Assembly (NCBI RefSeq): GCF_033115175.1
Contig: NC_084834.1
Location: forward strand, 10,823,294-10,887,293
Direction of reading: 5' to 3'
Origin: Lepus europaeus
Lineage: Eukaryota; Chordata; Mammalia; Lagomorpha; Leporidae
Length of the DNA stretch: 64,000 nt
The notes below the pieces were generated by a model, which worked only from the letters and a program-made list of their open reading frames with translations, was not told the origin of the DNA and did not search any database. Below, in pieces: positions 1-50,934 of this stretch. Each line of letters begins with the position of its first letter. The stretch's first letter is position 1. A program made the translations under genes and the position numbers.

Positions 1-3000
1 CCCTCCCGGACGGGTTAGGAGACCCCAGCGGGAAGAAACGGACGCCTTGCACACAGGCCCAGGCAGCGTGCAGCCAAGCTGAGAACCCGGGAGCACACAC
101 GGCCCCGTGTCGGAGCACCCGACTCGCACCGCGGCCCCTCTCTCTGCCAGGAAGGCACATCCTTCCTGGCAGAGAGCCGAGGATGCCACCGCAGCTCCAG
201 AGCACAGGCCAGGGGTTCGGGACCAGGAGTCGCTGGGCGACCGCTTCCCGGTCCCGGAGGGGATAGGAAAGCCCCCTTCTCGCTCCAGGAGCTCCGGCAA
301 CCCCGCGGGCACCCAGGGGCAGAGGACACAAGACACCCGGGCCCCTACCGTGGTCGGGCTCGGTGGAAAGGCCGGTCACGTCCGTGCGCGAAGGCGGCAC
401 GTCCGGAAGAGGTTCCCGGGTGCCGGGCTCCGTGTCTGCGGAAGAAGAGGAGACATAGCATACTTGGCCTGAGTGAGGGTCTTTTCAGACAACACACCTG
501 CCTGCGCCTAGAAGATCAGGCGGAAAAGGTTCTCCCAGCCCCACATCTCCCCTCGCCTAACGTGCGTACCTAGGTCAGTAAGGAGAAGCACGGGCGTGTG
601 CCTACGCAACCAAAAATCCCACCGAAGGGAAACTGAAGGCAGGCACCAGGGCCGGGCCGGGGAGGGGCCGGGGCAAGGACATCTCAGGAGAAGCAGAGGC
701 CCAGAGGACCATCCTTGCGGAGCGCGGCGTGCCCGCGCCTAGGTCCCCTGCGCACACTGGGCCACCAGGGGCAGTGGGGCACTCCACGCCAGGCCCCGGG
801 AGCCTTCTGCACTCGCAGCCTGCGTGGCAACTCAAGACATGCTGGTGGGACTGCTGCACCAGACGGGGCCACGGCAGGAGCAGACGTGGGGAACAGGAAG
901 CACAGCCCCCTCCCGGACGGGTTAGGAGACCCCAGCGGGAAGAAACGGACGCCTTGCACACAGGCCCAGGCAGCGTGCAGCCAAGCTGAGAACCCGGGAG
1001 CACACACGGCCCCGTGTCGGAGCACCCGACTCGCACCGCGGCCCCTCTCTCTGCCAGGAAGGCACATCCTTCCTGGCAGAGAGCCGAGGATGCCACCGCA
1101 GCTCCAGAGCACAGGCCAGGGGTTCGGGACCAGGCGTCGCTGGGCGACCGCTTCCCGGTCCCGGAGGGGATAGGAAAGCCCCCTTCTCGCTCCAGGAGCT
1201 CCGGCAACCCCGCGGGCACCCAGGGGCAGAGGACACAAGACACCCGGGCCCCTACCGTGGTCGGGCTCGGTGGAAAGGCCGGTCACGTCCGTGCGCGAAG
1301 GCGGCACGTCCGGAAGAGGTTCCCGGGTGCCGGGCTCCGTGTCTGCGGAAGAAGAGGAGACATAGCATACTTGGCCTGAGTGAGGGTCTTTTCAGACAAC
1401 ACACCTGCCTGCGCCTAGAAGATCAGGCGGAAAAGGTTCTCCCAGCCCCACATCTCCCCTCGCCTAACGTGGGTACCTAGGTCAGTAAGGAGAAGCCAGA
1501 AGCACGGGCGTGTGCCTACGCAACCAAAAATCCCACCGAAGGGAAACTGAAGGCAGGCACCAGGGCCGGGCCGGGGAGGGGCCGGGGCAAGGACATCTCA
1601 GGAGAAGCAGAGGCCCAGAGGACCATCCTTGCGGAGCGCGGTGTGCCCGCGCCTAGGTCCCCTGCGCACACTGGGCCACCAGGGGCAGTGGGGCACTCCA
1701 CGCCAGGCCCCGGGAGCCTTCTGCACTCGCAGCCTGCGTGGCAACTCAAGACATGCTGGTGGGACTGCTGCACCAGACGGGGCCACGGCAGGAGCAGACG
1801 TGGGGAACAGGAAGCACAGCCCCCTCCCGGACGGGTTAGGAGACCCCAGCGGGAAGAAACGGACGCCTTGCACACAGGCCCAGGCAGCGTGCAGCCAAGC
1901 TGAGAACCCGGGAGCACACACGGCCCCGTGTCGGAGCACCCGACTCGCACCGCGGCCCCTCTCTCTGCCAGGAAGGCACATCCTTCCTGGCAGAGAGCCG
2001 AGGATGCCACCGCAGCTCCAGAGCACAGGCCAGGGGTTCGGGACCAGGAGTCGCTGGGCGACCGCTTCCCGGTCCCGGAGGGGATAGGAAAGCCCCCTTC
2101 TCGCTCCAGGAGCTCCGGCAACCCCGCGGGCACCCAGGGGCAGAGGACACAAGACACCCGGGCCCCTACCGTGGTCGGGCTCGGTGGAAAGGCCGGTCAC
2201 GTCCGTGCGCGAAGGCGGCACGTCCGGAAGAGGTTCCCGGGTGCCGGGCTCCGTGTCTGCGGAAGAAGAGGAGACATAGCATACTTGGCCTGAGTGAGGG
2301 TCTTTTCAGACAACACACCTGCCTGCGCCTAGAAGATCAGGCGGAAAAGGTTCTCCCAGCCCCACATCTCCCCTCGCCTAACGTGGGTACCTAGGTCAGT
2401 AAGGAGAAGCCAGAAGCACGGGCGTGTGCCTACGCAACCAAAAATCCCACCGAAGGGAAACTGAAGGCAGGCACCAGGGCCGGGCCGGGGAGGGGCCGGG
2501 GCAAGGACATCTCAGGAGAAGCAGAGGCCCAGAGGACCATCCTTGCGGAGCGCGGCGTGCCCGCGCCTAGGTCCCCTGCGCACACTGGGCCACCAGGGGC
2601 AGTGGGGCACTCCACGCCAGGCCCCGGGAGCCTTCTGCACTCGCAGCCTGCGTGGCAACTCAAGACATGCTGGTGGGACTGCTGCACCAGACGGGGCCAC
2701 GGCAGGAGCAGACGTGGGGAACAGGAAGCACAGCCCCCTCCCGGACGGGTTAGGAGACCCCAGCGGGAAGAAACGGACGCCTTGCACACAGGCCCAGGCA
2801 GCGTGCAGCCAAGCTGAGAACCCGGGAGCACACACGGCCCCGTGTCGGAGCACCCGACTCGCACCGCGGCCCCTCTCTCTGCCAGGAAGGCACATCCTTC
2901 CTGGCAGAGAGCCGAGGATGCCACCGCAGCTCCAGAGCACAGGCCAGGGGTTCGGGACCAGGAGTCGCTGGGCGACCGCTTCCCGGTCCCGGAGGGGATA

Positions 3001-5470
3001 GGAAAGCCCCCTTCTCGCTCCAGGAGCTCCGGCAACCCCGCGGGCACCCAGGGGCAGAGGACACAAGACACCCGGGCCCCTACCGTGGTCGGGCTCGGTG
3101 GAAAGGCCGGTCACGTCCGTGCGCGAAGGCGGCACGTCCGGAAGAGGTTCCCGGGTGCCGGGCTCCGTGTCTGCGGAAGAAGAGGAGACATAGCATACTT
3201 GGCCTGAGTGAGGGTCTTTTCAGACAACACACCTGCCTGCGCCTAGAAGATCAGGCGGAAAAGGTTCTCCCAGCCCCACATCTCCCCTCGCCTAACGTGG
3301 GTACCTAGGTCAGTAAGGAGAAGCCAGAAGCACGGGCGTGTGCCTACGCAACCAAAAATCCCACCGAAGGGAAACTGAAGGCAGGCACCAGGGCCGGGCC
3401 GGGGAGGGGCCGGGGCAAGGACATCTCAGGAGAAGCAGAGGCCCAGAGGACCATCCTTGCGGAGCGCGGCGTGCCCGCGCCTAGGTCCCCTGCGCACACT
3501 GGGCCACCAGGGGCAGTGGGGCACTCCACGCCAGGCCCCGGGAGCCTTCTGCACTCGCAGCCTGCGTGGCAACTCAAGACATGCTGGTGGGACTGCTGCA
3601 CCAGACGGGGCCACGGCAGGAGCAGACGTGGGGAACAGGAAGCACAGCCCCCTCCCGGACGGGTTAGGAGACCCCAGCGGGAAGAAACGGACGCCTTGCA
3701 CACAGGCCCAGGCAGCGTGCAGCCAAGCTGAGAACCCGGGAGCACACACGGCCCCGTGTCGGAGCACCCGACTCGCACCGCGGCCCCTCTCTCTGCCAGG
3801 AAGGCACATCCTTCCTGGCAGAGAGCCGAGGATGCCACCGCAGCTCCAGAGCACAGGCCAGGGGTTCGGGACCAGGAGTCGCTGGGCGACCGCTTCCCGG
3901 TCCCGGAGGGGATAGGAAAGCCCCCTTCTCGCTCCAGGAGCTCCGGCAACCCCGCGGGCACCCAGGGGCAGAGGACACAAGACACCCGGGCCCCTACCGT
4001 GGTCGGGCTCGGTGGAAAGGCCGGTCACGTCCGTGCGCGAAGGCGGCACGTCCGGAAGAGGTTCCCGGGTGCCGGGCTCCGTGTCTGCGGAAGAAGAGGA
4101 GACATAGCATACTTGGCCTGAGTGAGGGTCTTTTCAGACAACACACCTGCCTGCGCCTAGAAGATCAGGCGGAAAAGGTTCTCCCAGCCCCACATCTCCC
4201 CTCGCCTAACGTGGGTACCTAGGTCAGTAAGGAGAAGCCAGAAGCACGGGCGTGTGCCTACGCAACCAAAAATCCCACCGAAGGGAAACTGAAGGCAGGC
4301 ACCAGGGCCGGGCCGGGGAGGGGCCGGGGCAAGGACATCTCAGGAGAAGCAGAGGCCCAGAGGACCATCCTTGCGGAGCGCGGCGTGCCCGCGCCTAGGT
4401 CCCCTGCGCACACTGGGCCACCAGGGGCAGTGGGGCACTCCACGCCAGGCCCCGGGAGCCTTCTGCACTCGCAGCCTGCGTGGCAACTCAAGACATGCTG
4501 GTGGGACTGCTGCACCAGACGGGGCCACGGCAGGAGCAGACGTGGGGAACAGGAAGCACAGCCCCCTCCCGGACGGGTTAGGAGACCCCAGCGGGAAGAA
4601 ACGGACGCCTTGCACACAGGCCCAGGCAGCGTGCAGCCAAGCTGAGAACCCGGGAGCACACACGGCCCCGTGTCGGAGCACCCGACTCGCACCGCGGCCC
4701 CTCTCTCTGCCAGGAAGGCACATCCTTCCTGGCAGAGAGCCGAGGATGCCACCGCAGCTCCAGAGCACAGGCCAGGGGTTCGGGACCAGGAGTCGCTGGG
4801 CGACCGCTTCCCGGTCCCGGAGGGGATAGGAAAGCCCCCTTCTCGCTCCAGGAGCTCCGGCAACCCCGCGGGCACCCAGGGGCAGAGGACACAAGACACC
4901 CGGGCCCCTACCGTGGTCGGGCTCGGTGGAAAGGCCGGTCACGTCCGTGCGCGAAGGCGGCACGTCCGGAAGAGGTTCCCGGGTGCCGGGCTCCGTGTCT
5001 GCGGAAGAAGAGGAGACATAGCATACTTGGCCTGAGTGAGGGTCTTTTCAGACAACACACCTGCCTGCGCCTAGAAGATCAGGTGGAAAAGGTTCTCCCA
5101 GCCCCACATCTCCCCTCGCCTAACGTGCGTACCTAGGTCAGTAAGGAGAAGCACGGGCGTGTGCCTACGCAACCAAAAATCCCACCGAAGGGAAACTGAA
5201 GGCAGGCACCAGGGCCGGGCCGGGGAGGGGCCGGGGCAAGGACATCTCAGGAGAAGCAGAGGCCCAGAGGACCATCCTTGCGGAGCGCGGCGTGCCCGCG
5301 CCTAGGTCCCCTGCGCACACTGGGCCACCAGGGGCAGTGGGGCACTCCACGCCAGGCCCCGGGAGCCTTCTGCACTCCCACCCTGCGTGGCAACTCAAGA
5401 CATGCTGGTGGGACTGCTGCACCAGATGGGGCCACGGCAGGAGCAGACGTGGGGAACAGGAAGCATAGCC
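1..5470. repeat. GC-rich tandem array, six 907/914-bp units
   Basis: Units start at 1, 908, 1822, 2736, 3650 and 4564, each beginning ccctcccggacgggttagg; lengths 907, 914, 914, 914, 914, 907. They differ by only a few substitutions, for example near 1134 (aggcgtcg instead of aggagtcg) and 1641 (gcggtgtg instead of gcggcgtg). The first and last full units lack a 7-bp ccagaag duplication. GC and CpG content is far above the rest of the window. All frames are open for long stretches only because of composition; those ORFs are not genes. The array continues to the left of the window. I do not recognise it as a named satellite. Confidence 0.97.
349..4998 (-). other. Candidate tandem coding exons, six identical 87-bp copies (phase 1-1)
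   Basis: Copies at 349-435, 1256-1342, 2170-2256, 3084-3170, 3998-4084 and 4912-4998. Each is preceded on the minus strand by branch-like ccctcactcag, then a pyrimidine tract ending tcttcttccgcag. Each is followed by CACG|GTAGGG. Each has 2 + 84 + 1 coding bases without a stop. If joined, the repeat reads DTEPGTREPLPDVP, then PSR, then TDVTGLSTEPDH, 29 residues. The phase equals that of the last RhoGAP exon (12940-13090), so copies could splice in series onto the protein. That they are spliced is inference; no downstream terminal exon is in view. Confidence 0.55.
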
Positions 5471-6190
5471 CCCTCCCGGACGGGTTAGGAGACCCCAGCG
5501 GGAAGAAACGGACGCCTTGCACACAGGCCCAGGCAGTGTGCAGCCAAGCTGAGAACCCGGGAGCACACACGGCCCCGTGTCGGAGCACCCGACTCGCACC
5601 GCGGCCCCTCTCTCTGCCAGGAAGGCACATCCTTCCTGGCAGAGAGCCGAGGATGCCACCGCAGCTCCAGAGCACAGGCCAGGGGTTCGGGACCAGGAGT
5701 CGCTGGGCGACCGCTTCCCGGTCCCAGAGGGGATAGGAAAGCCCCCTTCTCGCTCCAGGAGCTCCGGCAACCCCGCGGGCACCCAGGGGCAGAGGACACA
5801 AGACACCCGTGCCCCTACCGTGGTCAGGCTTGGTTTCAGCGTTCGTAGTCACGCCTGGCTTTGGCACGTCCGGCAGTGGTTCCCGGGTGCCGGGCTCCGT
5901 GTCTGCGGAAGAAGAAGAAGAGACATAGCATACTGGTCTGAGTGAGGGTCTTTTCAGCAACATACCTGCTTCTTCCTAGAGGTCCAGGCAGAGAAAAGTT
6001 CTCCCAGCACCTCACTTCCGCATGCCTAATATGGGTTCGTTGGTCAGTGTGGAGACAGCACTGGTGTGTGCCTAGGCCACAATGTATCCCTGCGAATGGA
6101 AACTGGTGGCACCAGGGCCATGGTGCAGAGGTGCCATGGCCGGTGTCAAGTAGTCCCCCTGCGTTGGGCCACTTATGCTTTAGTTTCATC
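5471..6190. repeat. Seventh, diverging unit at the array edge
   Basis: Positions 5471-5824 are still about as similar to the array as its units are to one another. From 5825 similarity drops abruptly, but the order of blocks is retained: exon-like segment, gagtgagggtcttttcag, gtgtgcctaggcc, the ggaaactg block and gcaccagggcc. This looks like the edge where homogenisation stops. It joins the older relic units to the right. Confidence 0.9.
5819..5902 (-). other. Diverged copy of the tandem exon, 84 bp, still open and in phase 1-1
   Basis: Same acceptor (cttccgcag) and donor (CACG|GTAGGG) as the array copies. The first 13 residues (TEPGTREPLPDVP) are unchanged. The rest changes to KPGVTTNAETKPDH: one codon shorter, with no frameshift or stop despite strong nucleotide change. 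An in-frame 3-bp difference with kept splice sites is the pattern expected of coding sequence, although one example is weak statistics. Confidence 0.5.
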
Positions 6191-12939: not shown

Positions 12940-13090
12940 CTAGGCCGGCAGCACTCTGCCCCGCAGTGGCGATGACTTGCCGGCTGCTCTCTCCAAAGTT
13001 TCTTTTGGAATTCATACAGCTCTTCTTAGACTTCTGGTCATCTCCAAATATTCTGGGATAACTTGCAATCATAAACTCCACAAGGGAAAT
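12940..13090 (-). CDS. ARHGAP20-like: ARHGAP20-like exon L: end of RhoGAP domain, phase-1 donor to the tail
   Basis: 151 bp. Acceptor cccttttgtgtcacag, donor CCTAG|GTGAGA. Phase 0 in, phase 1 out. [20 protein letters not shown] matches the last RhoGAP helix of ARHGAP20 ('VSLLIQFLIENC.RIFGEE'). Thirty Ser/Lys/Gly/Ala-rich residues follow. It leaves one G of a codon, so any following exon must start with two bases. The exon units at 5902 and below do so. If the donor were skipped the frame would run on to a stop near 12770. Confidence 0.9.
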
Positions 13091-16000
13091 CTGTGACACA
13101 AAAGGGTGGACATGGGGTGCTCTTTTCCACTTGGTCTGTTTAGGAGCACAAGTCCTATGTGAACCGTGAACATCACGAAAATGTGAAATTCTGGATTCTA
13201 ACAAAAATTTGCACTTGACATTAACACATACGAGCCAATTTTATCTCCTAAATGACAGTTACACTTTCAAGAATACTATGTACTTTGTCCAAAAACACTT
13301 CTCATTAGAAGACCAACATATTTTGTGGCCTAGTTGAATGGCTAATATTTTGATATCACTTGCTTCTTTGGCAAAAATAGGATAACTGTCAGTTAACCTA
13401 TGCAGGATGTTTGAAGTGAAGATGTAATCATTCCACACTAAAACATGTCAAGTACTCGAGAAAAGAACACATGTGAAATGTGCTTCTCAAGTGAATTATC
13501 TTAAGCTTGAGAAGCAGAGTTTCTTTGTGGATCCTTTGACGTGAAAGGAGTCAGTGCAAAGAAACTGTCTGCTTGGTTAGCTGAAGTCTCTCCACCAGCA
13601 TGGCTCTGCCTCAACCCAGCATTACATTCTGCATGAGCTTGAGAAGAGCTGTGATTATACTGGAGATGTTATGGGCCCACTACAATGCTCCGGAAACCTT
13701 GATTCACCTTCACATTCCAGTAGCAGAGATGAAATTGCACACCAACATTTCTCTGAATGAGCCACAGCAGGTGGATGAAGGTCACTGGTGGAAGGATAAG
13801 TGTGCTCATCTTGCCCAAGCACACAAGGCAGTGTCACTACTGACCACCACTGACCACTATTATCACCACTGCCATCACTCAGCTCAGGAAGCCATGAAGA
13901 AAACTTGGTTCAAGTCTGCATGGCTCTCAGTGACAGAGACAGAATTGCACCTTAGATTGCCCAACTACCAAAACTTGGTTTCCTTCTATCATGTTACATG
14001 AGCTTCTTCTCTCTCCATGTTTAAGTCATATCACTCTTCTGTTTCCTACATAGGAAAGAAGTAACTCACTGCTATCAATTTCCTGCATAACACCCCACCC
14101 TTCCACAATTCCCAATACAGAATAAGTGACCTGACACTGTAGAGGGGTAAAATGGAAGTCTTCATGGTTTAAAAAAAAAAAAAAAAAAGGCTCATCAGAA
14201 TGCAAATCCTGACTTTCACTTTCCCACTGGGACTGTGCTCCTCAACACATACAAACAGGGTACCTCATTACCTTTCTCCTCAATTCGCCTTCGAGGGCTG
14301 GGCTTGTTGAAGTAGATCGCCAGACACACAGAAGGCTCGGGGTGATGCACAAAGCTAACTTTGATGTAGTCATTTGATTGTATGATGCATTACGTGAGAT
14401 TGCATATAATGATGAAAACAAGTGTCTTAGGACAGCTGCGTTAGCTCTGGGCAGATGGGCTAAAAGCCTAAACACAAAAAAATGGAGTCTTATAACAAGT
14501 CACATAATCCAATGAAAATACAGACAAAAGGAGCTGTAAGTCTTAAAAAAATTCCTATGATTTTTTGCTGTGTTTTCACTTGGGATAACTCTGTCAATAT
14601 CTAATTGAACACAGGTATATTAAAAACAGATGTTGTGTTACAGAATGTTCTCAGGTGAGAGCTTACTGAGGAAATTCAACAGCAATTAATTGAAAGCATT
14701 GCCCTTCTTTGAAAGGTAATAGTGCAAGAATGCTGCCTCAAGCCAAGAGTCTAAAGTAGTGATGGAACAAACACATCCCAGGCATGAATGTATACAAAAG
14801 TGCTTGACTGACTTCAATTCCATAAGCACACACAGAGATCTCCACTTAGTTGCTCCTGACAATATGACGGTCAGACCCGTGGTCAACTGTTCTTGTACCA
14901 TGTCTCTGACACCAGCAGGCTTCCTCCCCACCAATGTCATACATTCAGAATGTGTACAATATCAACAACTCGATAACAACACTATTTGGGGAGAAATAAG
15001 AACTCAATGACAATGGTAGAGTCTACATGTCTTCTGATTCTGGCTGTGGTGTGTGGGACTACAAGAACCCTCTTCACAATGTGCACTCTTTTAGTGGTTC
15101 ATGCTCGAGAGCAGAAGAGAATCTTTTTCTCAGACTATGTCGGTTGCTTTCTGAGGCATGTCTGGAGTACAGTACCAATTATATAGAATCACCTCTGGAT
15201 GTCTCTGGCCTCCTCGTCATTGCCTTCATCAAGAACATTCAGCCACTGATCATAGAGGTCAGCTGAAAACAGGGTGTTAGGAAAGGCTCGAAGGCAATCC
15301 TTATAGAGATTAAAAAAGAAGTTATATCAATTTGTTGGCAAGTATAGACTGGAGAAGTTACAAAGAAAACATTTAATTGCAATATTTAATTTAATCTCCG
15401 CTTTTTCTCTAGACGCTCAAACTGTGACCTCCATAGAGTTTGGCCTCTCATTCCCACCACTGTGTACATGCAGAAACAGGTGCTTCAATTTCTTCTGACT
15501 TTCTTCTGACTTCTCAGAGTCTCAGAAGTTTTGGAAGGGAAGAAAAACCTCATCTTATTGTCTCAATCATCTTTTGGGGGGTAGTTATTATGGCATAGTG
15601 GATTTATCTGCTGCCAGGGATGCCATCAACTCATATCAGAGGGTCACTTCAATTCCTGGCTGCTCTACTTCTGATTCAGCACATTGCTGAAGTGCCTGAG
15701 AAAGCAGTGGGTAACTGCCCAAGTACTTGGGGCTCTGCCCTATTTCAGAGACCTGAAACAAGTTTTGGGTTCTGGCTTCAGGTTGGCCCAGCCCAACCTG
15801 GGCCACTGCAAAAAACTGGGGAGTGAACCTACATGTGGAAGATTGATATCTCTGTATGAGCATGTGTGTGTGTGTGTGTCATTGTAAGCTTATTTATTTA
15901 TGTAAAAGATGGAGTTGAAACACACAGAGAGAGAGAGAGAGAGAGAGGGAAACAGAGAGACAGAGAGGGAAACAGAGAGAAATCTTCCATACACGAATTT

Positions 16001-18606: not shown

Positions 18607-21600
18607 CTCCTCTCTGTGTAATTCTGACTTTCAAATAAATAAAAAAAAGAAAATTCTGTGCTCAATGGGCAGAGGCACAGAGAGCGAGACACACATGCAC
18701 ATACACACACACTGTTCATGAATGAGGAAGAGAGACAGAGAGAGATCCTACATAAAAGAATGGCTCCAAAATCCAGTTCAGACCCTGGTTGAAGCCAAGA
18801 GCATCATCCTTGCCTCTCACATGGGAGGCAAGAACCTCAGTACCTTGGCCATCTTCCACTGCCTTCCCAGATGCATTGACAGGATGCTGGATCAGCAGCA
18901 CAGCAGCCAGGACTCGAATTGGTGCTCTGATATACGACGCCAGCATTCCAACCCCCAGCATACCCTGCTATGCCACAACACAGGCCCAACATTTTAAAAC
19001 ATCTAACGTAGCTTTGCCTGCTGCAACACTTTCAAAGTCAGATTTACAAGCTGAGCTTTGTGCTGGGGCTCGTTGCTATGTAACTATAACTATGAGTATT
19101 GGCTTAAGTACAATGGAAATGAACATAAGATGCCAACAGTAGTCAAAATGAAGGCAGCTCCAAATAGCAGAGTCCTGATACCACGTGTGAAGCAAAGGCA
19201 TAAGAGACAGGGGAAAGAATGACAATGGAAAGAATGGAATTTTCTTGGCATTTATGTGTATGTGTAATTCATTTTAAAAGCAATGTTTGCTTATTGTGGA
19301 AAACACCTAGAATGGTTTTCAAAATTTCAAATAAAGTTTCTTTGGGAAACTCTGATGTCATTAGGAAGACACTGTCAAATCTGGCAAACGCAGGAGATTT
19401 GTACTGGCCAAAATTCTATATGAATAACCAGGGTTTATTTGGAAGATGCTTGGGCAATTATTAGGAACTATGCTAGCATAATTCTGCATGGAGCATTCAG
19501 ATGAGGACAGCAAGCATGGAGTCTGAAGACTGGGGAAAGCTATCTAACAAGCAGAGTCTGTCCAATGAAGGGAGTAGCTGCCTACAACCTGGACATTCTG
19601 ATGTGTTTTTCAGTTTCTCAGGCGCTTAACTGATTAGGCCTATTACTCTTCTTGAGATGTCACGAGGAATGAAACCCATCACACAGCTTCCATATTGTGC
19701 ATAGATGATGCCAGAATCCCCCTACCTTTAATAGTGTTGCTAACACAAGTGGCGATTCATTGCCCCAGTCGCCTCTATCTCCTGTATTGAATCTTTCCTT
19801 CAGGGCTATAAATGACTTTAGGTCACCAACTTTTTGAAAAATATTCTCTGTCTTTGGCCCTTTCTGCTTGATAAGGCGGATCAACTCCTGTGGGAAAGAA
19901 AAAGGAAAGCTAATTAAAGGACATTTCATATCCACAAGCCCAGAACAAAAGCTAGCCCCTGTAAAGAAGAGTATGTGAACTAATACAGCAGGAGCTGAAG
20001 TGAGAGAAGAAAATTTGTTTCAGTGTCTCTAAATACATGTTCGACCCATCCCTCTGATCTGTGTCCACCCACTAAATTGTTTTGAATGCTGGCTTTAACC
20101 TATTTTCATTCTCAAGGAATGGAACTTTTAAACCAAACTTCTCTGCTTCAAGCTTTCAGTGAATCACTCTCTCCTGTTTCACCATGCTGTTCTCATTATT
20201 TCCTAGTACTGATGACCTTGCCCAACTAGGAAAATCTCATTGCCACACTTGTTGACTTCCATGTCCTTCTGCCCCATCTTCATGCCAAGAGGGGAACAGG
20301 AGTGTCACAGTCAGGTATCTCCAGGAATTTGTCACCTATTAGGTCCCTTACTTTTCATGAGACCTTGGGCATAGTACATTACCTTACTCAAGCTTTCCTT
20401 TTATCCATGAATGATGTCACAGTGATGAGGATCCTAGCAACTCCTTCAACTTGTGAATGCTGCAAGGGCTGGGGCACCATCTAGCATGGAACTAACTTGA
20501 TACATTCCTCCCCACCTAGCATAAAATGCCCTACATCTAGCATAGTGCGTGTAGATGTGCTGGACAATCAATGTGCCAACTCTCAAATGCCCTCCCGGGA
20601 AATAACACAGGCCACATTCTGTGGCTTTCCTCTGACACAATTTCTTATGATAGAAGGATAAATAAATGGCAGATGATCCATCTAATCATCTGAAATACAA
20701 ACCACACCCACAGTGAGGGACCTTGAGTTATAAGTTCGAGTCATCTAGACAAAAAGGAAATGAAGGAACACTTCAAGGAAGAGGCTAAAAGGGGAACATG
20801 GGGGATGTCGACTCAAAGAGATTCAGAAACATTCCTTTTGCTGTGTGTGAGCAGGTGACTGGGTAACATCGCTGAAACCAGCAGAATAAACGGAACGGTT
20901 GTTTCTCCTGTTGCGTTTCAAGTAAGACCACGATAACGGATCTGACTGCTCTTCTTTGAGGTCACATTCAGAAGGCATGTCAGCCAAAGCCAGGGACTGA
21001 CAAATGATGGCCTCATCGGAAACACTTTTGGATGATGACACCAACCCCTCAGAACGCTCACTCCTCAGGAGGGCTTCAGAAGATCAAAATGGTACCTACC
21101 CAAAGCGTGAGCATCAGGTCCTCCACACCAGACACTCTCAGGAATGTTGGCACTGAAAGAGCAGGAGCGGCGTCCTGGGGCACGTCATTATGGCTTCTGG
21201 TAATGCCCCAGCAACACAGCCAGTTCGTGGGAAAGCCTGAGGAGAAAATGAGACCATTAGCTGTGGAGGATCAATGACAGATTCTGTTTCCACCCTTTCC
21301 ACCCATCCATTGACAGATGACTGTTTCCACCCTTAGAAAAGACAGAAACTGATCCATTTGTGGTGCACAAGAGCTTACAATCTGAAATTGGCTAGTTCCA
21401 TCCACGTGACATTCATGAACTTTTCTTCCCAGTTTCCTATAAGCTGGCAGTTAGAATCAGGTGTTTAGCCTAATTGTTAAGATGCCCTAGGCTCATATCA
21501 GAGTATCTGGACCTGATGTCCATCTTTGGCTCTCAATTCCAGCTTCTTGCAAATGCAGGCCCTCTGAGGCACTATGCATGGCTAACAAATTTGGGTTCCT

Positions 21601-24600: not shown

Positions 24601-27600
24601 AGACAAAGGACCCAGGTATTTGGGTCATTTTCTGCTTCCTTCCCGGGCACATTCTGATAAAGCCAGCGAGCTTCATCAGAACTGGGAGAGCCAGGACTGA
24701 AGCCAATGCTCTGATGTGGATTGCAGGATGCAGCTTAACCCACTGTACCATGATGCCAGGCCCCAAGAAACTTCTCTCTGGAGACACATAGGTTTGTGCA
24801 TGCATTATTTTATGGAGCAAATGCTCAGGGTATCCAGAGGAGACAAAAGTTCTAATGTAGAAGAACCACCACAATCCTCCTGGAAGTGAGATGGGTTCTG
24901 ATTTTGAATAGTTTCTCTAAGCCTGGTTCTTGGTGAGTATTTGTTACAGTTGATTTCTCAACAATGTTGCAGTGGGTTCCTTTCTGAGAGGAGCAGCATG
25001 GTGGGGGTCCCTGTACTTATGCACACCTCCTCCCTCATGGAGAACAGCTCTCTGTCATGAATTTTTTCTCAGGAATGCATGGATGAGCAGAGAGCAGAAC
25101 CCTGCTGGAAATTAGACTTACCACAGCGGTGCAGCCTTTCAGCCATGTGCCTGGGCTTCAAAACAAACTGGATCCCTCCATCAGACAAGATGTCCAGAAC
25201 AGGATCCTCCATGCTCAGGGTGGAGGTGGACTTCCCTGGTTCATGATTATGAAGAGCAGCTCGATGGTAGCTTGCTTGAATAGCATATGGACATTCATAC
25301 CCTAGGCAGAGAAAAATCTCAATATACATCAGGCTGATGGTGACAGGTATGATCAAACATGCCTTGTTGTCAGTGTGGGTACAGCACCGTGGACAGCTCA
25401 AGTTCTCCTGGGGCTTCTGCAAGAGAGCTGTGTCTTGGGAGTGAGCATCAGGTGTGCTCTCTCTGGGGAGGCACTGCATAAAGCAGGTACCTAGGCAGAG
25501 GACCTTTCCAACGCAAACAGAAGTAGTAACACATTGCCTAGCTTAGAAGACCAAGATCCCTCAGTGCACTACACATTGATGACTTGTAATTTCCGTTGTA
25601 AAGTATAAGGCCTCCTAAAATCTGCCTCCAACTAGATTTTTACACCTCACAAAAAAAAAGATGTGATCAATTTCAACCAGATTCCACCCCTTTCCATACT
25701 TACCATCCTCATATGAGTAAACATCAGTGGTCTGCATTTTTTAAATGATTGGGCCATATATGTCATGAGTTGCTGTAATCTAGAATCTCTCACCCACGAT
25801 GTTAGATCATGAAAAGAGACTTCATTTCTCTGTCAGTTTTATAGCCTGGGATTCTCAAGAGCACTGGGGCCATGGTCTGCTGTTACACTTCCCTCCTACT
25901 TGGGCCCTCTCGGGAGCCCCTCACAGCTAACTAGCTGAGGGAGTGCTGCAGAGTGTTAGAGACCCAGAGCCATCCTACCAACTGATGTTCACAGAGTACA
26001 TGTACAGTCATTGCTTTCCTCTCTCATTTTTAAATTGCTGGCAACTCAAGAAATTCTCAAAGATCCTCTGCTACTGCTGGGTATTAGCAATTGAGATGTC
26101 CATGAAGACACCTGTGTCCCACACGGAACCACCTGGTTTGGTCCTTGATCATGGATCCTGACTGAAGCTCTCTGCAATTGCAGATCAGACCCTAAGATAC
26201 AGAGCTGTTGTCTTGAATACTGATGTTCCTGCCACTCACATGGAAGACTGGATTGATGACCTGCCTTCTGGCTCCTTGCTCTAGGACACCTCCAATCTTT
26301 GTGGACCTTTAAGGATAGAACTAGCAATTTAACATTCTGTTTCTATTTTTGCCTCTCAAAAACTAAACTTTGAACGTGTTTTCATGATTCTGTGCTGTCA
26401 AAGGGATTTTCTTTTCAACAACAAAGTGAAAGCTCCCTTTCTTCAATTTCTGACATATTAGTTAAATTTTCCATTTCATGGGACATTAATACTCTGTTCA
26501 GAGCAAGAATTATAGCACCTTGTCTCTTTCATGGTAAAAGAAGCTTCTATCACTGCAATATTAATAAAACCAAACCATCAGCATAACCAGGACAGAAAAA
26601 GATGATCAGGAACTGAGAGTATATTAAACACACGTCCATAATGACTGCTAGGGGTCACCAATGACAGATACACTCTTAGGATTTCTTAGAGCCAGTCACC
26701 ATGCATGCTATCGTTCAGGTCCAAATCATCCTCCAGAAAAAAAACTTTTTACATAAACAAATGCCATCTACTCAATAAATTCATTTACAGTATTTGATTT
26801 TCACACTATCTCTATTGCTATCTTGTTACAAAGATGTCAAAATTAAGGAAAAACATCAGAGGCCCACTTGGGCCTCATTCTTTTGCAACTATAGCGTCTA
26901 CTCTACCACCAATGGCTCTACTCCCAACCTGTGTGTACTGATGGTCCTTTTCCCACTTAATGTTGTATGATTGTTCAGAATTTCTCTACAGACAAGCCCA
27001 GCTACCTGCAAAAGCTAAGTGGCCTTTTCTCCCAGTCTTGGCTGGGACCAGCTTTAAGCCACATCCATTAAACTGTCCCCACAATGATCCAGAGACACCC
27101 CCCCCCCCCAATTTCCTCTCCTCTATGAAATGGTTAATGCTACTCTTAGGATCATTGGTTACTATTCTCAACCCTGTCTTTTATACTACAGTGTCTAAGT
27201 GTTTACAGCAAGTTATAATGGAACAAAGGAAAGGCCTTCAACAACCAGGCAGTCAACCAAATGCTGCTACAGGAATATACTCGGCTCCCCACCCAGGAGA
27301 CAGCAGCCTGAGACATCGCCCCAAGCCAGCAGGAAGTAGCTCTAAAGATAGATCATCATCCCTCTACCCTCCCTGGGCTTTTGGGACTAATGTAACCCCA
27401 TAGTAATCCTGCTTTATAAAAAACAAAAGGGGGGAATGTTAGGAAACTGGTGCAGTTTTAGCCAGGTGGCTGCACAGCCCAGCTACCTGAGCCAGGCTCC
27501 ACCCCCATCCTAATGGGATTCCCTGCCCGCCCTCAGGCAAAGTTTTAAAAGGGCCTGTTCCTGAATACGTGCTCTCTTGGCTCTGCTCCCTGCTCTGTTG

Positions 27601-30600: not shown

Positions 30601-33600
30601 AGGAGGAGGGAGAGTGGTATACTTGGACACAGACGTGACAGATTTTGCAAGACTTAAAAATAGAGGTTACCTATGAGATAAGAAATAGAAAAGGGGAATA
30701 CAAACCAGTATATGGGCATCAATCGAATGTTTGGAGAAATAAAATTCAACTCCATTTTCATTTCATTATAAAAAAGAAAAAAAAAGGACTATTCCAAGAC
30801 AGTTGTGTTATCCACATGGAAAAGCAGAGAATAAAACTTCAGTTTCTTCTCCAACTACAACTTAAATTGCTGTATGAAGATATGTTGTCAGGCACCCGGG
30901 GTAGAGTACACACTTGGCAATTAATTTTATAAATGAGTACTGACTACATGAGGTTGTTTTCTTCCTTGTAAAGATATTTAAGCTTAAGAAAAAACAATGC
31001 ATAGTCTGGAAATTAATAGTTACCATTCTGAAGCAATACATTTCATTTTTTATTTTGCTGGACACTTACCGACGAGTGGGTAAGAGTTCTTTCTCTGGTT
31101 TGAATAGACCCACATTTGGTAGTCCGTTTCTGAGCCCTAAGAGACAAAAAGAACTAAGCATCACAAGTTTTTGTCAGGGCATACTTCAAGGATGTATTTC
31201 TTTTTTTTTTTTTTTAGAAAACTTTAATAAATATAAATTTTGAAAGCATTTCCCCCCATAACCACCCTCCCACTTGCAAACCATCACATCTCCTACTCCC
31301 TCTCCCAACCAACTCTTCATTAAGATTCATTTTTAATTCTCTTTAAATAACCCATAGCTCTTAATATATACAGAAGATCAACTTAGTATATGCTAAGAAA
31401 GATTTCAACACTTTGTACCCACACAGACACACAAAGCATAAAGTACTGTTTGAAGATAAGTCTTATAATTCACATAGTACACCACATTAGGGACAGAGAT
31501 CCTACATGGGAAGCAAGTGCACAGTGACTCCTATTATTGATTTAACAAATGACACTCTTAGTGATGACGTCAGTAATCACCAGAGGCTCTTGTCATGAGC
31601 TGCCAAGGCTATGGAAGCCTCTTGAGTTCACCAACTCCGGCCTTATTAGACAAGGCCATAGTCAAAGTAGAAGTTCTCTCCTCCCTTCAGAGAAAGGTGC
31701 CTCCTTCTTTGATGGCCTGTTCTTTCCACTGGGATCTCACTCACAGAGATCTTCCATTTAGGTCATTTTTTTTTGCCACAGTGTCTTGGCTTTCCATGCC
31801 TGAGAAACTCTCATGGGCTTTTTAGCCAGATCAAGGATGTATTTCTTTAGCGTTTCTACATTTCCAAAGAAGAAAATAATTGGGACCAGTGCCAATGCTC
31901 TTCGAGTTAACAGGACTGACCGAAATAACTTTGGTCCCTCTCTGAGCTTCCAAGACTACACCCCAGATTCATGCCATATGACTTTTGACAAGGATCACAA
32001 TGCTATTACCCCAAGTGACCTAAGGAATAAGGAATCATATTTATGCCACTTCACTAGTAAAGGGAAGCCTAATCCTGATCATTCCACTCTCAGCTATCTC
32101 CAGTCTCTTTGAAGAATGCTGTGTTTTAGTGGATTTAGCTGGCTTTCCATCATCTACACATGAGACCTGGATTAAGTTCTCAGCTCCAGGCATCAGCTCT
32201 ACTGCTGCTGTAGGCACTTGTCGAGGGAAACCATAGACATAAACTCTTCTGTGTGTCTATGTCTCTCAAATAAAAGAAGTTTTTAAAAAAGACATGTATG
32301 TGGTGTGCACACACATTCCCCAAATAGCAAGCTTTCATTCAACTCTTATCTTGCTTTTTAATAATTTATTAGAGGCACCAGATATATCATTCCCTGAATC
32401 AGCATCTAAGGCATACGGCTTTTATGCAGGTGTTCTTCATGTCAAAATTTACAAGGAGTGAGATTTTAGCATGGTGGTTTTAAGATGCCTGAGACTCACG
32501 CCACAACAGCTGGGTTCCAATCCAAGTTCTAGGTCCTCATTCCAGCTCCCTGCTAATGTGCATTCTGGGAAGCAGCTATGAATTCTCAAGTAACTGGGTT
32601 CCTGCCACCCATGTGGGATACCTGAATTGTACTCCTGGATCCAGACCTTAGCTTCAGACCACCCTTAGGTGCTGTGGGCATCTAGAGATTGAACCAACAG
32701 AAGGGAGCACCCTCTCTATGTATTTCTGTGTCTTCCTCTCTGTGTGTCTCTCTGTCTTTGTCTGTCTCTCTTGCTATCTCTGTCCTCTCTGACCCTCAAA
32801 AATTAAAAAAAATATTCAACTAGACATGTCTATTAGGTTTGTGTACACTGAGATGATAGGTGTGGGATTGGAGAAACCAGAATATACAGAAATAGCAACC
32901 CAACAGACAAGCTTATAACCTTCGTATTAGGAAGCATGTAAGATATTTGTGTGTGTGTATGTGTGTGTGTATAAATATATATATATATATATACACAAAA
33001 ATAAAATACATGACAATAGCAATCTGAAATTATACTCCAATTTCATTAAATTGTAGCTTTCAGTTCACATGAAATTTAAAATCAGAACAGAAGAGCAATA
33101 CCCATACATAGACAAATATATCTCCGATGTTTTCCATTCCCACATGTGCACATGGTTTTGGGACAAAATATGTTGCTGCCTACGATTGGTATCTTTGCCC
33201 GGAACTGTATTTTACAAATATGCACTGTAAGCATGTGTGCATGTATCTGGATCAAGGGGAACACATATTCATCTCAAAAACCAAAGTTGTTATTTAACTA
33301 ACTAAAAGTATCTTTCAGATTACTTACACTTAATCCTAGCACTGGTAGTGCCATATGGATAACGTCATTCACGGTGTCTAAATTGGTAACTGTTATAATT
33401 CCAGACTGTAAAAGGGAAAAGAAGAAAAAACTGCTGATACAGGAGAATGTTAAAGTATATGATTACATAATTATGAAACTCTTGGATTCAGAATAAAGTT
33501 TGAGTAATGACAAAGCAAAATACATATGAAGCACCAAACCTTAATGATAACTGATTTTTATTACTTTACATAACACAAAGCCAGAAGAAAGAATTTCAAT

Positions 33601-38164: not shown

Positions 38165-41100
38165 CCTCTCTCTGTGTAAGTCTGATTTTCAAATAAATAA
38201 AAAAAAATTTTTTTTAAAAAAAGGTGAAGCTGAAATCTACACATTTTTGGATGAAAGCAAATTAGAAAATTGGTTGGCACCAGAACTTTACTACAGGAAA
38301 TGGCAAGTTTCTGTAAGATAAAATCAAGATAAAATTAGAGAAAACTCAGATTTTCAAGTGTGAATGAATAGCATTAGGTATGGTTATTTTATGAAAACCA
38401 TACATAAATGAAACTGATTTTGAAAAATTCCAGGATGAGCAACCATTTGCCACAACTAAAACCAAAGCAGGTTGAGACAAGGGTGCTCCTCCCTACAGGA
38501 GAACTCCATTCTCAACTTCTTCAAGCAATTCCTCTGGTTATGGAAAACAGCTCATAAAAGATGCCTGGCTCTGATTAGCTGCTGGTAAATGGCTGTGTTG
38601 GACTAGGCTTTTTCTACTGCAAATACCACATTTTGTGATCTGAAGCTGCTATAAAGAAAAAGTCAAATAGCGTATCAGTGTTATCATGGTCACCGTTATG
38701 AAGATCTGGGCTAGTGTGTCATAATTTTAGAAATCAAATGTGATCCAACTGAAGCTATTCTTCCCTATAACATACAAAAATGAGGAAGACACACACCGTT
38801 CTCTCCAAAGGTTCACCCCTTCAAGTTTAATTCAATCCTGACAGACTTTGGTATGGGACGTAACCAGCTCAATGCAATACCTAACTCCGAGAGTGGATTC
38901 TGTTCCACAAAGGGAGCATTACTAGAGCAATCAATTGGAACATGACATGAACAACAGGTGACAATATTATTTATACCAATGTTCAATTTCCAGGTGAGGA
39001 CTGTATGGTGTTTATCTAAGACTATATCTTGATCTTGGGAATACACAGGTATTCGAAGATAAAGGCATGCAGCATATGTAACTGCCTTCAGAAAGAAGCA
39101 TATCCAGACACATATCAAGAGAGAGACAGAGAAAATAAATTATGGAACAAAAATAGGACAAGATGCTATCAAATCAGCACATTTGGGTGTGATATTCTTA
39201 TCACTCTTTCACACATTTCAGGGTTTTAAAATTCCTTCCAAATAAATAAAAATATTTTAACATGAAATAAATATTGAAAAACTGGGAACAAACAAAACCA
39301 CTGTTTGAAAGCAGTGACAAATGAAGAGAAATATTTAAATTCCCAGAATACTGGCTTGGGGAAAAACACTTTATGAAAACATGAAACTTCGTGGATATTT
39401 AACAGGAAATATTCTTTCTAAGCATAAGCATTGAGTTATCGTGGATTCCCAATGCTTCATATAACCTAACATTTACTTTTTATGTACACAAAAAAACTGC
39501 ATGTGTAGGTGAAGATATATTTCTCCATGTTCCCTTCTGAATACTCTCACTCTCCCATCTCTCTCTGTCACTCCAATCTCACTCTCTCCTCCCTCTTCTT
39601 TTCATCCCCTCCTCTGTTCCATTATATTGTTCCTCTTCCCATACTGCTTGATCTCTACCTGTTTCTCTACCTAAAACCTCTATCCCCATTGTCTCTACCT
39701 CTCTTTCAAAGTCAGGAAATTGGAATTTAAAATGTGGAGTCCGAAACACACTTACATAAGGAATGTTGCTATCGGTGAGTGATTCTATCTGCAGAAGTGT
39801 GGTCTGCTTTTGATCTTTCTCTTTCGACTCAGTTATACACCTGATAAAAATCATTAAGAAACAAAAATTAATGAATTAGCTAATGTTTCTCATCAAATCA
39901 ATTCATGTGGCAAAAATTTTCTATATATTTCTCATCATTTATATGTACATATATATATATATACACACACACGAAACTCTTGTTTGAGCTAGCTAATACA
40001 TATACTGATACAGAGACATACATATGTATTTCTGTGCACAGATATCTATAGCATACTTACAGATATAAATATATTTATCTATAAATAACTTATATTATTT
40101 ATATTTAGATTTGTAGAACTCAGCAAGGTCAAAAGATGAGGAGTGGCATCGCTGTGGCATACGAGGTAACATCACCCACCGCCTGTGGCACCGGCATCCC
40201 ATATGGGCACCGGTTCGAGGCCCGGCTGCTCCTCTTCCAATCCAGCTCCTGGCTATGGCCTGGGAAAGCAGTAGAAGATGGCCCAAGGCCTGGGCCCCTG
40301 TAGCTCCGCGGTAGACCAGGAAAAAGCTCCTGGCTCCTAGCTTCAGATCAGCCCAGCTCCAGCCACTGCGGCCACTTGGAGAGTGAACCAGTGGATGGAA
40401 GATCTTACCCTCCACCTTTCCTTCTTTCTGTAACTCTACCTCCCAAACAGATAAATAAATAAATCTTTAAAAAGCCAAACCAAGAACAACAAAACCAGAT
40501 GAGTAGGAAAATAATTCTGGGAAAGACGGCATGGCCTGGAAAATAATAGGGAGTGTCTTGATGTGTGGTTTGGGCAGCAGATCCACCCCTCAAAGTTTAC
40601 CTATCTGGACCACCTTCATGGCTTCAAGTGTAGGAAGCAACAGGCGCTTTCAGACTCACTCAGTAGAGCACTGAGTAGATCCACTCAGCTACTGAGTAGC
40701 TCAGTACTAGCTACATTTATAGACATTTAATACATATTGGGAATATTGTTAGCTCTGATCCATAGGCTGTACGGAGGGAAAGATGAAAGATACATCTTGA
40801 ACTTCCTCAACAATGAATACAACATTCATGTGAATGAGGGAACATGACTTACAGCACATGTAGAGGAACCAAGGATTGCAAGATCATCTGAGAGTATTTT
40901 TAAGTGGGAAGAGCATTTTTAAGTGGGAATCATGTAGGGGCACTGCTCGCAGAGATTTATGCCTCCTAGCACAAACTGAAGATTCAAAATGTGTATGCTA
41001 GAGAAATACCTGTCCAGCAAGCGTTCCCATTTTTCCATGAATGTCCGGGAGCTGCAAGCACAGAAGTCAGAGAAAATAGTAAGCTACATAAAAGACTAAT

Positions 41101-44100
41101 TCCAACTGATTAAGACTACCATTGCAGATAAACACACCAGCAGGCAATTGTGGGTGACAGGGACTCAGGCGTAAGTAGTGCCCTTGCATACAGGGGCTCT
41201 GGGTGGAGTCCGCTCTTGTACAGCCACATGACAGTGATGGGAAAGAGTTCTTAAAGGGAAGGAGAAGCTGACTTGAAACGAAACCCTGGATTGCAACGAT
41301 GGGATGCTAGCTCAGTGATCACAGGAGTCACTGAACTGACATGAGTCTCAGTATCCACCATGGAAAGTGGAGGTCATTAAACCTCAGAGTGCTCTTGTAG
41401 CTTGAAGTGCTATTCCAATGGAAAAAGCATTATGATCAGATTAGGTCATACTGAAGAGACTGGGCATGTGAATGGAATGCTCTGAGCTCCCTTTAGCGGG
41501 GAAATCCATACCACTGTACTGCACAGAGGCTGCAGAATTGTCAGATGTCAAATAAATACCTCGAAAATCATTTCAGTGCTATGATGTGCTGAAGAATGTC
41601 AAAGCACCTAGTGTTTGGTGACTCATGTTTTATATCCTTTCTGCTACATCATTAATGTATTTGAAATCCAAAGTGAGAAAGATCTGCAGTTTCAAACATA
41701 CATAGGCTTATAATTTACTAGCATCCAAAACAGCTGGGGAGTGATTAACTACATAGAAAATAAAACTGACCATTTATATGACTGGGTCCTGTGCCGGCAG
41801 CATCTGTAATACCTTGCTCATGAATATCTGCATTATCCCGAGAGCAAACCCTGCTCGCTAGTAAACAGCCATGCCCTATTCTCCACCACCCCCAGATCCT
41901 ACACATCATAACTATCCATTCATCAGGTCATGAACATGTGATTTGTTGCTAATGTCTGGCTCTAACGAACAACACTGCTAGGAAGATTTGTGCCCAAAAG
42001 TCAGAGTTAGGAAAAAACATAGAATGTATGTATGTTTACACTTTCCTTGGACCTACATTCCAGAGTGGAACTGCTCAGTCCTGTGGTCATCCTACATTGA
42101 ACTCATGGAAGCAACACGTTTTTCTGCAGGGGCTGCCACATTTCCTATTTCTACCAGCAAGAGCTCCTCCACGCTGCATTTCTATGCCTTCTCAGGACAT
42201 GCTTCCACAGCAAAGTGGACATTTCCTTGGCTTTCCACCTTCATATGGACTTGAACACCACTGGTTACTTATGCCAATTTGCATAAGAGTGATAACAGCC
42301 AACAGGAAATGTACTCGGAGCTGGGCGGTGTTGTAAATGTGTTGTATGTGTTTACATAGCTTCATAGCCAATACAGCCTATGTCCACCTCGTGCCCACGC
42401 TTCTCCCTCATTCAAAAAACTGTCTAGTGGAACTCCTCATCAAAGGCACCACATATGCCCAAATAGGCAGCTTCCTTTCACCTGCAAGATTAAGAAGACA
42501 TTAAGCAATAGGATCTGAGAACCTAGGGAGCAAAGTTGTCACGGCCAAGAAGACATGCAGACAGTGGTACAAGCATGTCTTTCTTCTCAGTAATATTTGC
42601 AAGCAGTTCCATCACAGAACTGAGTTAATTAACAGTTTGGATATATCTCCTTTGTATCAACTTCAATACGACCTGACAGACCTGGAGGGAGTGAGGAGAG
42701 GAGAGCAAAAAAGAGCACTGTCTTTGTGAAAAACACACAGGACATACGGTTTGTGCCTGTTCAGAGCAGCAGGCAGGGGTTGCAAGGTACCTGTGTACAC
42801 AAAAACATAGACACAAGATGTCTAGGGAATGGAGCCCCGTTTCCTTTCCTCATACCAGCCTCAAAATGGGCCTTGGAAAACTCACCCACATCCCATGAAT
42901 CAAATCTTTGTTTCAGGTGGCTGTATCACTGAAGACACCAAATAGCAATTCTAGCAACCCAGGATATAATTTAATTTGTATAATCAAGTACTATTTCTTT
43001 AGGGCATTACTTTGGGAGAATCAAAGGATTTTTCCAAGCTGAATTGATCTACTCTACTAGTTGAAACACACAAAAGCCTAGACCTAGAGGATGGAGGATA
43101 TTGGAGAGGGGTCCCAGAGCCTTGCTCTCTCAAATCTATTTTTACTAATCCAAAATACCCACTCCCCAAGTAGCTCATGGAGCCCTTGGAAAACCATTGC
43201 TCCAGACCAAAGCAAATCATTCCACAGTTCCCATTTCATTCTCTCCACACATATTGGCACATAAAAACTTCTTGGGGAAAATATGTGTCAGACAAGTGCC
43301 ATGGCTGGAAGTCAAAGCATGAGGCAGCAGATTATTACAGGGTCAAATTAAAATGCTTATCATTCCCTCCCCAACCCCCCCAAAAAAAACAAGTTTGGAA
43401 GAAAATTTAGGTGCATTTCTCTATCTTTGTTAGAAAAGGCAATAAGGGTTATATCCTTCCATATCAAAGTAAAATTACAAGACTCAGCAGTGATACTTAC
43501 AAGAACTTGGCCCTGTAGTTGACCATTGGCCACCCAATATTCAGGCACCTGGAGGCACTGGTATCACCTTCCTCAACAATGCATTTGGAAATCCATATTT
43601 CATTGACAGGGATTACATGTTTGTAGTAAATATTTTTGCCGTACCTAAAAAGATCATCAAGCAAGATGGTTTTCTTTTTTCTTAAATGAGAGCACATCTT
43701 CTCCTGAGCAAACCCCAATTCTCCATGTTCCATAAGCAAGAACACCTCACATCCATCTATTCCCTCTCAGTGCACAGCACAGGCAAGAGTCAGGTGGACC
43801 TTGACAAAAGCATGTGCTCAATGAAGGCTGGCCCACAAGGGGCCCCCACACACAAGATTAATGGCAGCCAGTGGCAACAGATGGATTGGTCTCTTTCTGA
43901 ATGCTGACTATGGACTCGAGGCCATACTCTATATTTTAAAGGTGTTACATTTTAAGAGAATCACTCATTCTCTGGTCATGCACATCTGATTGACTTCAAC
44001 AGAGTGTCTGAGGGGTTGAACAAAGATTAAATCATGGATGAATTATTTATAAAATTTTCTTCTTCACAGAGACAGACTATACATACATAATCTCGGAATA

Positions 44101-49480: not shown

Positions 49481-50934
49481 TGAAGATTATTGAAAATTTC
49501 AGAGTTTGACTGTTTCTAACTGGCTGTGTATGAAAGGGAGCATATATCATAAAAGAGAACATGTAATCTGGAACAATATCAATCTGCCTGGTTTTACTGC
49601 AAGTTATAGTAAAATATCAAAAGCAATCTTCAACTGTGAAGTTCTCTATACATATCTGCTGCTAATTCATTCTAAGTAAAAGCAACAGGCATGCCTTCTG
49701 CCTTTTCAAAGGAAAATTAAATCACATGCCCCTGATATTCTAAAGCAGTTTATATCTCTAAAGAGAGTATTTCCATTCAACTACCACACTGCCCTCTGTA
49801 AAGAACACTAAGATGGACACTACAGCTGAGACTCACCAAGCTCTTAAAACATGGTTTCAGAAGAGGGAACACTAGGCAATTTTCAGCCTATCACATGTAA
49901 AACAAGATGACACAGCGATTGGTAAAGAAGTCATTGTAACATGGTCCCCTGTTAGCATGATAATTTACATAATAGGGATACATTGATTCCCACTTAGTAA
50001 AATGCTTCCCATCTTATCTAAATTAGTGTTCAAATTTGGAGGCAAGGGGAGAGAAGTGCTAAACAACATGAAATACTGCTGGCAACATCCACAAACATTT
50101 CTTAACATCAGACAGGCTTAGATATAACTGGTTGAGTTAGGACCATGTACCAATGGGGCTCTGTGGCCATAATAGGTAAAACCAGTTGGACTGAGCAGAA
50201 CATAAAACTCTTTCATAAAAAGGACAGCCTCTTTTGAGATCTTTTCAGAGAAAACTCTTTGCCATGAAGCCAAGGAAGTGTCTCCCCTGATAGTACAAAG
50301 CCTGCTCTTTTGAGCTCCGTAGCACTAAAGCAAAGAACAAAAGTAGCTTCTCATGAAACCAGCACCAAAGTCAGGAATTACTTCCTCTGTTTTAGGGAAA
50401 ACAGAACAGAACTCTTCCTGGGACGACCAGCCTGCTTAAAAGATCACAAGTAGTATAGGAAAAGGCTACCTTGCGCTGGGGACTGGCGGATGACTTTCAG
50501 AAGCTCTGACATTATTTTCCATTGCTCATAATCTTTGACTCTGTCTACTATTCAACAGAAACTATGAACAAGACTCTGAAGACTGTGGGTTCCGCAGTAG
50601 TCAAGATCACCCATCATTGTGATGTCAAGGTTCTAAGGCTCATGCCATAACTGACAAACTCTCAAACTGATATATTGGTTTTCTAGATTTTGGCACCATC
50701 ATTCAATTCTTCAAAATTAAACTGAGATGATTGTTCCTTTGCACATAGTTGTAAGAAACAGAGATTTCAGCAAGCTTTCCTCCAGTTTGCCCAAGCGGCA
50801 ATGTATTTCAAAGCTATACTGCAATAGTATTTCTTTGCATAATTTAGTATAATTATATAATATTTTATACAAAAATAATATGTTCAACATTAAAATAAAT
50901 ACATGATTCACCCATTTTCTGCTCTTGTAGCAAA

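Follow-up and report, generated by a model that had tools for sequence, protein, structure and literature searches.

A tandem array of in-frame exons that probably encodes the tail of a leporid ARHGAP20-like protein

Repeat exons and gene in the window

The window is a stretch of 64,000 nucleotides of the hare Lepus europaeus (C10:10,823,294-10,887,293; contig NC_084834.1), and genome searches covered the 2.93-Gb assembly. Its minus strand, to which the exon positions below refer, carries an intact-looking ARHGAP20-like gene, with 13 exons from 50522 to 12940, upstream of a tandem array of ~0.9-kb repeat units, each of which contains one short exon in frame with the gene. These units had been picked out in a first description of the window, made from its letters without database searches (the sequence-only reading), and are placed here in a complete reading frame and among sister genes.

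Seven repeat exons were located: one of a distinct first type, 84 bp long (5819..5902, DTEPGTREPLPDVPKPGVTTNAETKPDH), and six of 87 bp at 4912..4998 (DTEPGTREPLPDVPPSRTDVTGLSTEPDH), 3998..4084, 3084..3170, 2170..2256, 1256..1342 and 349..435, in the window part (1..5820) of a 907/914-bp tandem array. The sequence-only reading had described these seven units with a strong acceptor, a donor and open 84- or 87-bp segments of phase 1-1 that continue the frame of the gene. All of this held: the positions were confirmed with a spacing of 907 or 914 bp, the acceptor CTTCTTCCGCAG and a donor of G followed by GTAGGG recur in seven of seven, and the 20 window exons (13 plus the seven repeat exons) join into one stop-free frame of 724 residues, with every junction GT-AG and in phase. 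The copy reported as strongly changed and one codon shorter, with both splice sites kept, proved to be the gene's first repeat exon. Each unit read, here and in the sister genes, contains a single phase 1-1 exon that has both its splice sites and is 84, 87 or 90 bp long. Tandem Repeats Finder did not list the array, the longest period that the program takes being 500.

The upstream gene was placed with hare and rabbit relatives as guides, by tblastn of rabbit P0003, followed by a check of splice sites and phase; these two steps define exons 1 to 9. Exon 1 (50470..50522) carries the start codon (MENNVRASESHPPVPSA). A putative PH-like region begins in exon 2 (47396..47560) and includes exon 3 (43501..43644), exons 4 (41010..41051) and 5 (39756..39840) come next, and a putative Ras-associating (RA) region occupies exons 6 (33328..33405), 7 (31070..31136) and 8 (25122..25301), the last of which also encodes a linker. 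After exon 9 (21100..21236), the RhoGAP domain spans exons 10 (19726..19887; Pfam PF00620 and alignments), 11 (15193..15299; Pfam and tblastn) and 12 (14272..14467; 66 residues; Pfam and genome search). Exon 13 (12940..13090), placed by the splice and phase check, ends in phase 1, just as had been said of the last RhoGAP exon before the array, at the donor TAG/GTGAGA, cut after TAG. Past this donor, the frame stays open for 55 codons (GESSLRWDL..., 12773-12940 minus), and rabbit P0005 ends within the matching stretch, where a short isoform without the repeat tail is possible.

The RhoGAP part matches PF00620 with an E of 2.5e-30, and its best solved match is the ARHGAP20 crystal structure 3msx (E 2e-42). 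The putative PH-like and RA regions are assigned by alignment of the window exons to P0003, for which the database lists PF22286 and PF00788. An Rfam scan of the window gave nothing at the gathering threshold. At the arginine-finger position the gene reads IFQKVG, where p50RhoGAP chains have IFRRSA and ARHGAP20 has IFRQSA. The same Gln is found in the hare and rabbit relatives P0003, P0004, P0007 and P0008; the position is Arg in rabbit ARHGAP20 P0027, P0009 and hippopotamus P0020, and Trp in pika P0019. According to the part of PMC8305018 used here, the arginine finger (Arg282 in p50RHOGAP numbering) is the catalytic residue, its loss gives an inactive RhoGAP, and Lys319, Arg323, Asn391 and Pro398 are further residues needed for activity. 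By our own matching of those residue numbers to alignment columns, this gene retains Lys (LLKD), Arg (CLRA) and Pro (TPSLL) at the corresponding positions and has Lys (TTSKLALC) in place of the Asn in TNTNLAVV of p50RhoGAP. Because the arginine finger is lost, the GAP domain is probably catalytically inactive, and leporids probably have a pseudo-GAP family. What the sequence-only reading called a RhoGAP gene thus keeps its domain assignment and is refined to an ARHGAP20-like gene whose GAP is probably dead.

Array size and divergence among sister genes

Array A, as the array of this gene is called below, runs off the window at base 1 and extends another 32 kb. The count of seven given earlier is therefore that of the window, and in the genome the array has 43 repeat exons in all, with the 36 further units and two terminal exons lying from C10:10,822,815 down to about 10,789,142. 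Of these 43 exons, 41 encode an identical 29-mer, one has a single residue changed, and one is the distinct first exon; AG, GT and frame are kept in 43/43. The two possible terminal exons beyond the last unit correspond to the end of the hare protein model P0002. The complete reading frame comprises 58 exons and 1805 residues, or 1813 residues if the first terminal exon is read through to a stop instead. Because the repeat exons are phase 1-1 and lie between a phase-1 donor and phase-1 terminal exons, any number of units keeps the frame. The predicted tail has a high content of Pro, Thr, Asp and Glu, in agreement with the Pro/Glu/Asp/Thr-rich 29-residue repeat first proposed, and a four-unit piece of it matched no Pfam family at E up to 1.

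The 66-residue RhoGAP exon (exon 12) has 30 matches in the genome, nine of which, including this gene, are 100% identical and all on C10; the terminal exon is present at 11 genome places. Seven sister genes, all on C10 and identical in this exon, have arrays built from a 918-bp version of the unit, with unit numbers between about 17 and 85. Only arrays A and B were read whole. Array B (C10:12,544,727-12,612,747) opens with an 84-bp first exon, after which come 74 exons of 90 bp, and 75 of 75 repeat exons are intact in splice sites and frame; the joined exon model of gene B took in 74 of the 75. For array C, 3 kb were read at each end; C and the others were sized by distance. Unit numbers in the six further plus-strand genes, estimated as the distance from the RhoGAP exon to the terminal exon calibrated on array B, are 84.8 (C), 35.0, 53.9, 77.0, 46.0 and 17.0, an approximately fivefold range among sister genes. 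Array size is very unlike from one sister gene to another, and copy number therefore changes. The sequence-only reading suggested that it could vary between individuals; the comparison here is of sister genes within one assembly. The rounded estimates together with array B (74, 85, 35, 54, 77, 46 and 17) sum to 388. A genome-wide search with a 99-bp pattern of exon and splice sites, allowing at most three mismatches, returned 388 forward matches, a kind of count that can be a lower bound, with 0 in reverse and 0 for the reversed control.

The distinct first exon type opens the array at all four sister loci checked (B, C, J and K). Two of these are small: locus J (C10:0.28 Mb) has the first exon and two units, and locus K (C2:176.23 Mb) the first exon and three units, a size convenient for splicing tests. 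Near the ninth 100% identical RhoGAP exon (C10:15228184-15228381, minus strand), the terminal exon was not found, and the array may be absent or the gene truncated there.

Array DNA has 67% G+C and an observed/expected CpG ratio of 0.65-0.68 (arrays A and B; 0.65 in window positions 1..5820), compared with ~42% and 0.19-0.25 beside the arrays, the rest of the window included. At 67% G+C, a 29-codon open frame says little when taken alone, so the case rests on phases and splice sites together with the gene models of homologs. The CpG-dense sequence spans 38 kb at array A and 68 kb at array B, and its methylation is worth measuring.

Within each gene, the first repeat exon can be compared with the array exons. 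In array A, the two differ by 23 substitutions and one codon, with 18 of the 23 substitutions in the 3' half; 3'-half differences amount to 18/41 sites in A, 19/42 in B, 18/42 in J and 16/41 in K. The intron after the first exon differs from the array intron at 9/754 sites in A, 0/762 in B, 16/750 in J and 0/754 in K. On these figures, introns look alike within a gene, as if homogenised, and exons look alike by position. A neutral alternative is possible, in which the first exon lies outside the amplified unit and conversion halts at old, diverged sequence. An older, diverged homolog of the unit intron adjoins array A at 5903..6185 (200 of 276 aligned sites identical). This flank is poorer in G+C, and its differences from the array (39 AT to GC, 15 GC to AT and 22 other) fit biased gene conversion, the direction of change not being polarised.

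When the array exons of A and B are compared, the 3' half differs at 7/45 sites and the intron at 14/762 (p 6.7e-5); the 5' half differs at 0/42, plus one inserted codon. In the consensus alignment of the two arrays, five of the six exon substitutions change a residue. The same exon-versus-intron comparison gave p 0.0017 for J and B and p 0.019 for A and K, and the first exons of A and B differ at 5/42 sites in the 3' half, with 21/762 in the intron (p 0.0089). The first half of the unit, DTEPGTREPLPDVP, is identical in this gene and rabbit P0007; it is not shared by rabbit P0003, nor by the first exons of B, J and K.

Use of the units as exons and possible explanations

Whether the units serve as exons can be approached through five database protein models, P0001, P0002, P0003, P0005 and P0007, all of which are predictions. 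In hare P0002, three repeat pieces follow one another and the end resembles the two terminal exons found here; locus J encodes the three repeat exons of P0002 letter for letter, together with the first terminal exon as far as it is translated. Rabbit P0003 holds two units. Rabbit P0007, which stands for a cluster of 11 sequences, has 12 tandem copies of a related 26-mer and, after copy 12, reads through the last donor (GRGPCVLCPLPLGARWVAGAP), two residues off the read-through of the hare donor; the last rabbit unit thus has the same donor context. The proposal of the sequence-only reading that the units are used as exons is partly supported, by their exon-like shape (A 43/43, B 75/75) and by P0002, P0003 and P0007; P0001, which skips them, and P0005, which ends earlier, speak against it.

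Taken together, the locus is probably an ARHGAP20-like gene of leporids in which a coding tandem array specifies the protein tail. Spliced in series, the repeat exons would yield a disordered tail with a high Pro, Thr, Asp and Glu content. Near-identical units could undergo unequal crossing-over and gene conversion, which would shift their number and keep them alike. The protein would be a scaffold that combines PH-like and RA domains with an inactive GAP domain, and array size would set the length of its tail. A stronger form of this proposal, put forward tentatively and at somewhat less than an even chance, describes a hare gene family with a hypervariable coding macrosatellite for its protein tail: each gene would have 17-85 near-identical in-frame exons, with more than 430 per genome, and serial splicing of all of them would attach tails of ~500-2,500 residues to a dead-GAP scaffold. 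Sister genes, alleles and species would have tails of different length, and positive selection would act on the second half of the unit while crossing-over keeps copies alike within a gene. The exon changes between arrays and the kept DTEPGTREPLPDVP suggest selection on the protein, on the strength of few sites and overlapping pairs.

Several observations weigh against serial use of all units and against selection on them. Support for serial use consists of database gene predictions rather than transcript reads. Hare P0001 (6 member sequences) passes from a first repeat exon of the gene B type directly to a last exon, so that 74 units are skipped; this last exon is a second phase-1 last exon, GSMIVSLESDPESGMVTD, at C10:12621390 plus, ~8.6 kb past array B. 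Gene C shares the first exon of gene B, and P0001 may stand for a sister gene other than B. In rabbit P0005, the end falls within the intron that follows the exon matching 12940. That both totals come to exactly 388 may owe something to luck, because such counts may be too low and array C has a non-integer estimate (84.8). Few sites, in pairs that overlap, underlie the exon excess between arrays: A and J show none (p 0.076), the first exons of A and K differ at 1/42 sites in the 3' half, with 15/754 in the intron (p 0.58), and the 5' halves of first exons vary too, at 9/42 (A and B) and 8/42 (A and K). Within arrays, polymorphic gap-free columns number 3/87 in the exon and 26/791 in the intron of A (41 units, the distinct first unit excluded; p 1.0), and 5/90 and 12/799 in B (73 units; p 0.022), where the exon is the more variable; the last unit of each array was excluded, since each unit was taken as running from its exon to the following one. 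Selection inferred from intactness alone was rejected, within-array exon variation being not below intron variation.

A first alternative, compatible with much of the explanation preferred here, is that a small and regulated number of units is included by alternative splicing, with tail length varying among the transcripts of a gene and not set by genomic copy number alone. It is a serious possibility, if one somewhat short of even, and draws on the variety of annotated ends, which read through (P0005), skip (P0001) or include units serially (P0002 and P0007), and on the donors of the repeat exons, which score 6.5 by our own matrix, within the range of 4.4 to 9.5 of the gene's other exons. What speaks against it is that the near-identical splice sites of the units offer no sequence reason to pick certain ones.

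The array might instead be a G+C-rich macrosatellite grown from one intron-exon-intron piece, most or all of whose units are skipped, leaving a short tail. Macrosatellites that are not obviously coding are known (DXZ4), and both the high G+C with its many CpG and the within-array exon variation, no lower than that of the intron, would agree with such an origin, as would P0001, which skips the array, and P0005, which ends before any unit. This account is unlikely, given that P0002 and P0007 include units in series, that the exons are intact throughout A (43/43) and B (75/75), that DTEPGTREPLPDVP is common to this gene and rabbit P0007 (though not P0003), and that exon changes between A and B cluster in one half. 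A CTCF-bound insulator of the DXZ4 type was considered separately and rejected: the CTCF core motif CCASYAGRKGGCRS, at up to one mismatch, has no match in window positions 1-5902 and two matches elsewhere in the window. A DXZ4-like insulator role is without support here, because the CTCF-like core was not found in the window part of the array.

That the locus is a pseudogene is very unlikely. It belongs to a much-copied family and has lost key GAP residues, but its 20 window exons, 58 in all, join in frame with GT-AG sites, and the 66-residue exon is 100% identical at nine loci. Finally, units that are 99% identical make long arrays difficult to assemble, but that the unit number and the large arrays are assembly artefacts is scarcely credible in view of the near-integer unit numbers from flanking-exon distances (six of seven within 0.1; C 84.8), the two unit types (907/914 and 918 bp), the variants shared by neighbouring units and the rabbit protein model with 12 units.

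Known parallels and the wider family

The closest known parallel to the proposed tail-encoding array is the coding variable number of tandem repeats (VNTR) at KIV-2 of human LPA, where a kilobase-size tandem unit likewise contains whole in-frame exons and unit number determines protein length. Two features of a coding VNTR were found in arrays A and B: whole, multiple-of-three exons with equal phase on both sides, and units that are near-identical, introns included. Each KIV-2 unit encodes a folded kringle, and in people these units are expressed and vary, whereas the 0.9-kb hare unit has one exon of 84-90 bp that probably encodes a disordered piece, and the hare arrays, known here from sequence, reach ~85 units, with large arrays in eight genes. 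Whole-exon coding VNTRs are thus already known; what is unusual in the hare is the number of near-identical exons per gene, their spread over sister genes, and the apparent skip in one public model. Repeat masking is suspected of making annotation skip large arrays. Automatic annotation can do so, as P0001 shows none of the 74 array units of gene B.

Titin resembles the hare gene in that dozens of short, similar exons build a repetitive segment. An excerpt of PMC6469411 gives more than 100 short repetitive exons, with 74-109 within the PEVK region in 41 mammals, and a content of about 70% P, E, V and K. In the hare unit these residues account for 11/29 (38%), far from ~70%, and the hare exons are near-identical within an array, with introns homogenised too. 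Tandem repeats also occur in human segmental-duplication genes, e.g., the morpheus family with its 87-bp unit (PMC2812944, in part), and there, as in the hare, recent paralogs are unlike in their number of protein-altering repeats. Most of the cases described in that part of the source are minisatellites that expanded to a small number of units (no more than four in one group), whereas in the hare whole exon-plus-intron units have been copied tens of times.

A description of the array was not found in an open-access literature search judged from listings, and among open-access papers with the exact phrase 'rho GTPase-activating protein 20-like' none is on leporids by title. Few mammalian genes have a protein length set by the count of whole exons in a tandem array. 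Closely related genes with very unlike array sizes in one genome would offer a direct view of how dozens of identical exons are spliced, and the same set of genes lets one ask how fast arrays change and whether tail length matters.

With ARHGAP20 itself, the annotated relatives of the hare gene have in common the set of PH-like, RA and RhoGAP regions. The hare gene differs in that rabbit P0027 keeps the finger Arg and has a long tail without these units, whereas it has Gln and the exon array itself. A testis PIWI-interacting RNA locus at Arhgap20, which part of PMC4654475 reports as expressed in mouse but not in rat or rabbit, was not used here. Elsewhere in the family, rabbit P0008, a more distant relative, has its own tail of repeated pieces ending SETDH, and rabbit P0014 has three copies of a 105-residue block; judged from these sequences, tail expansion may have arisen more than once in the ARHGAP20-like family.

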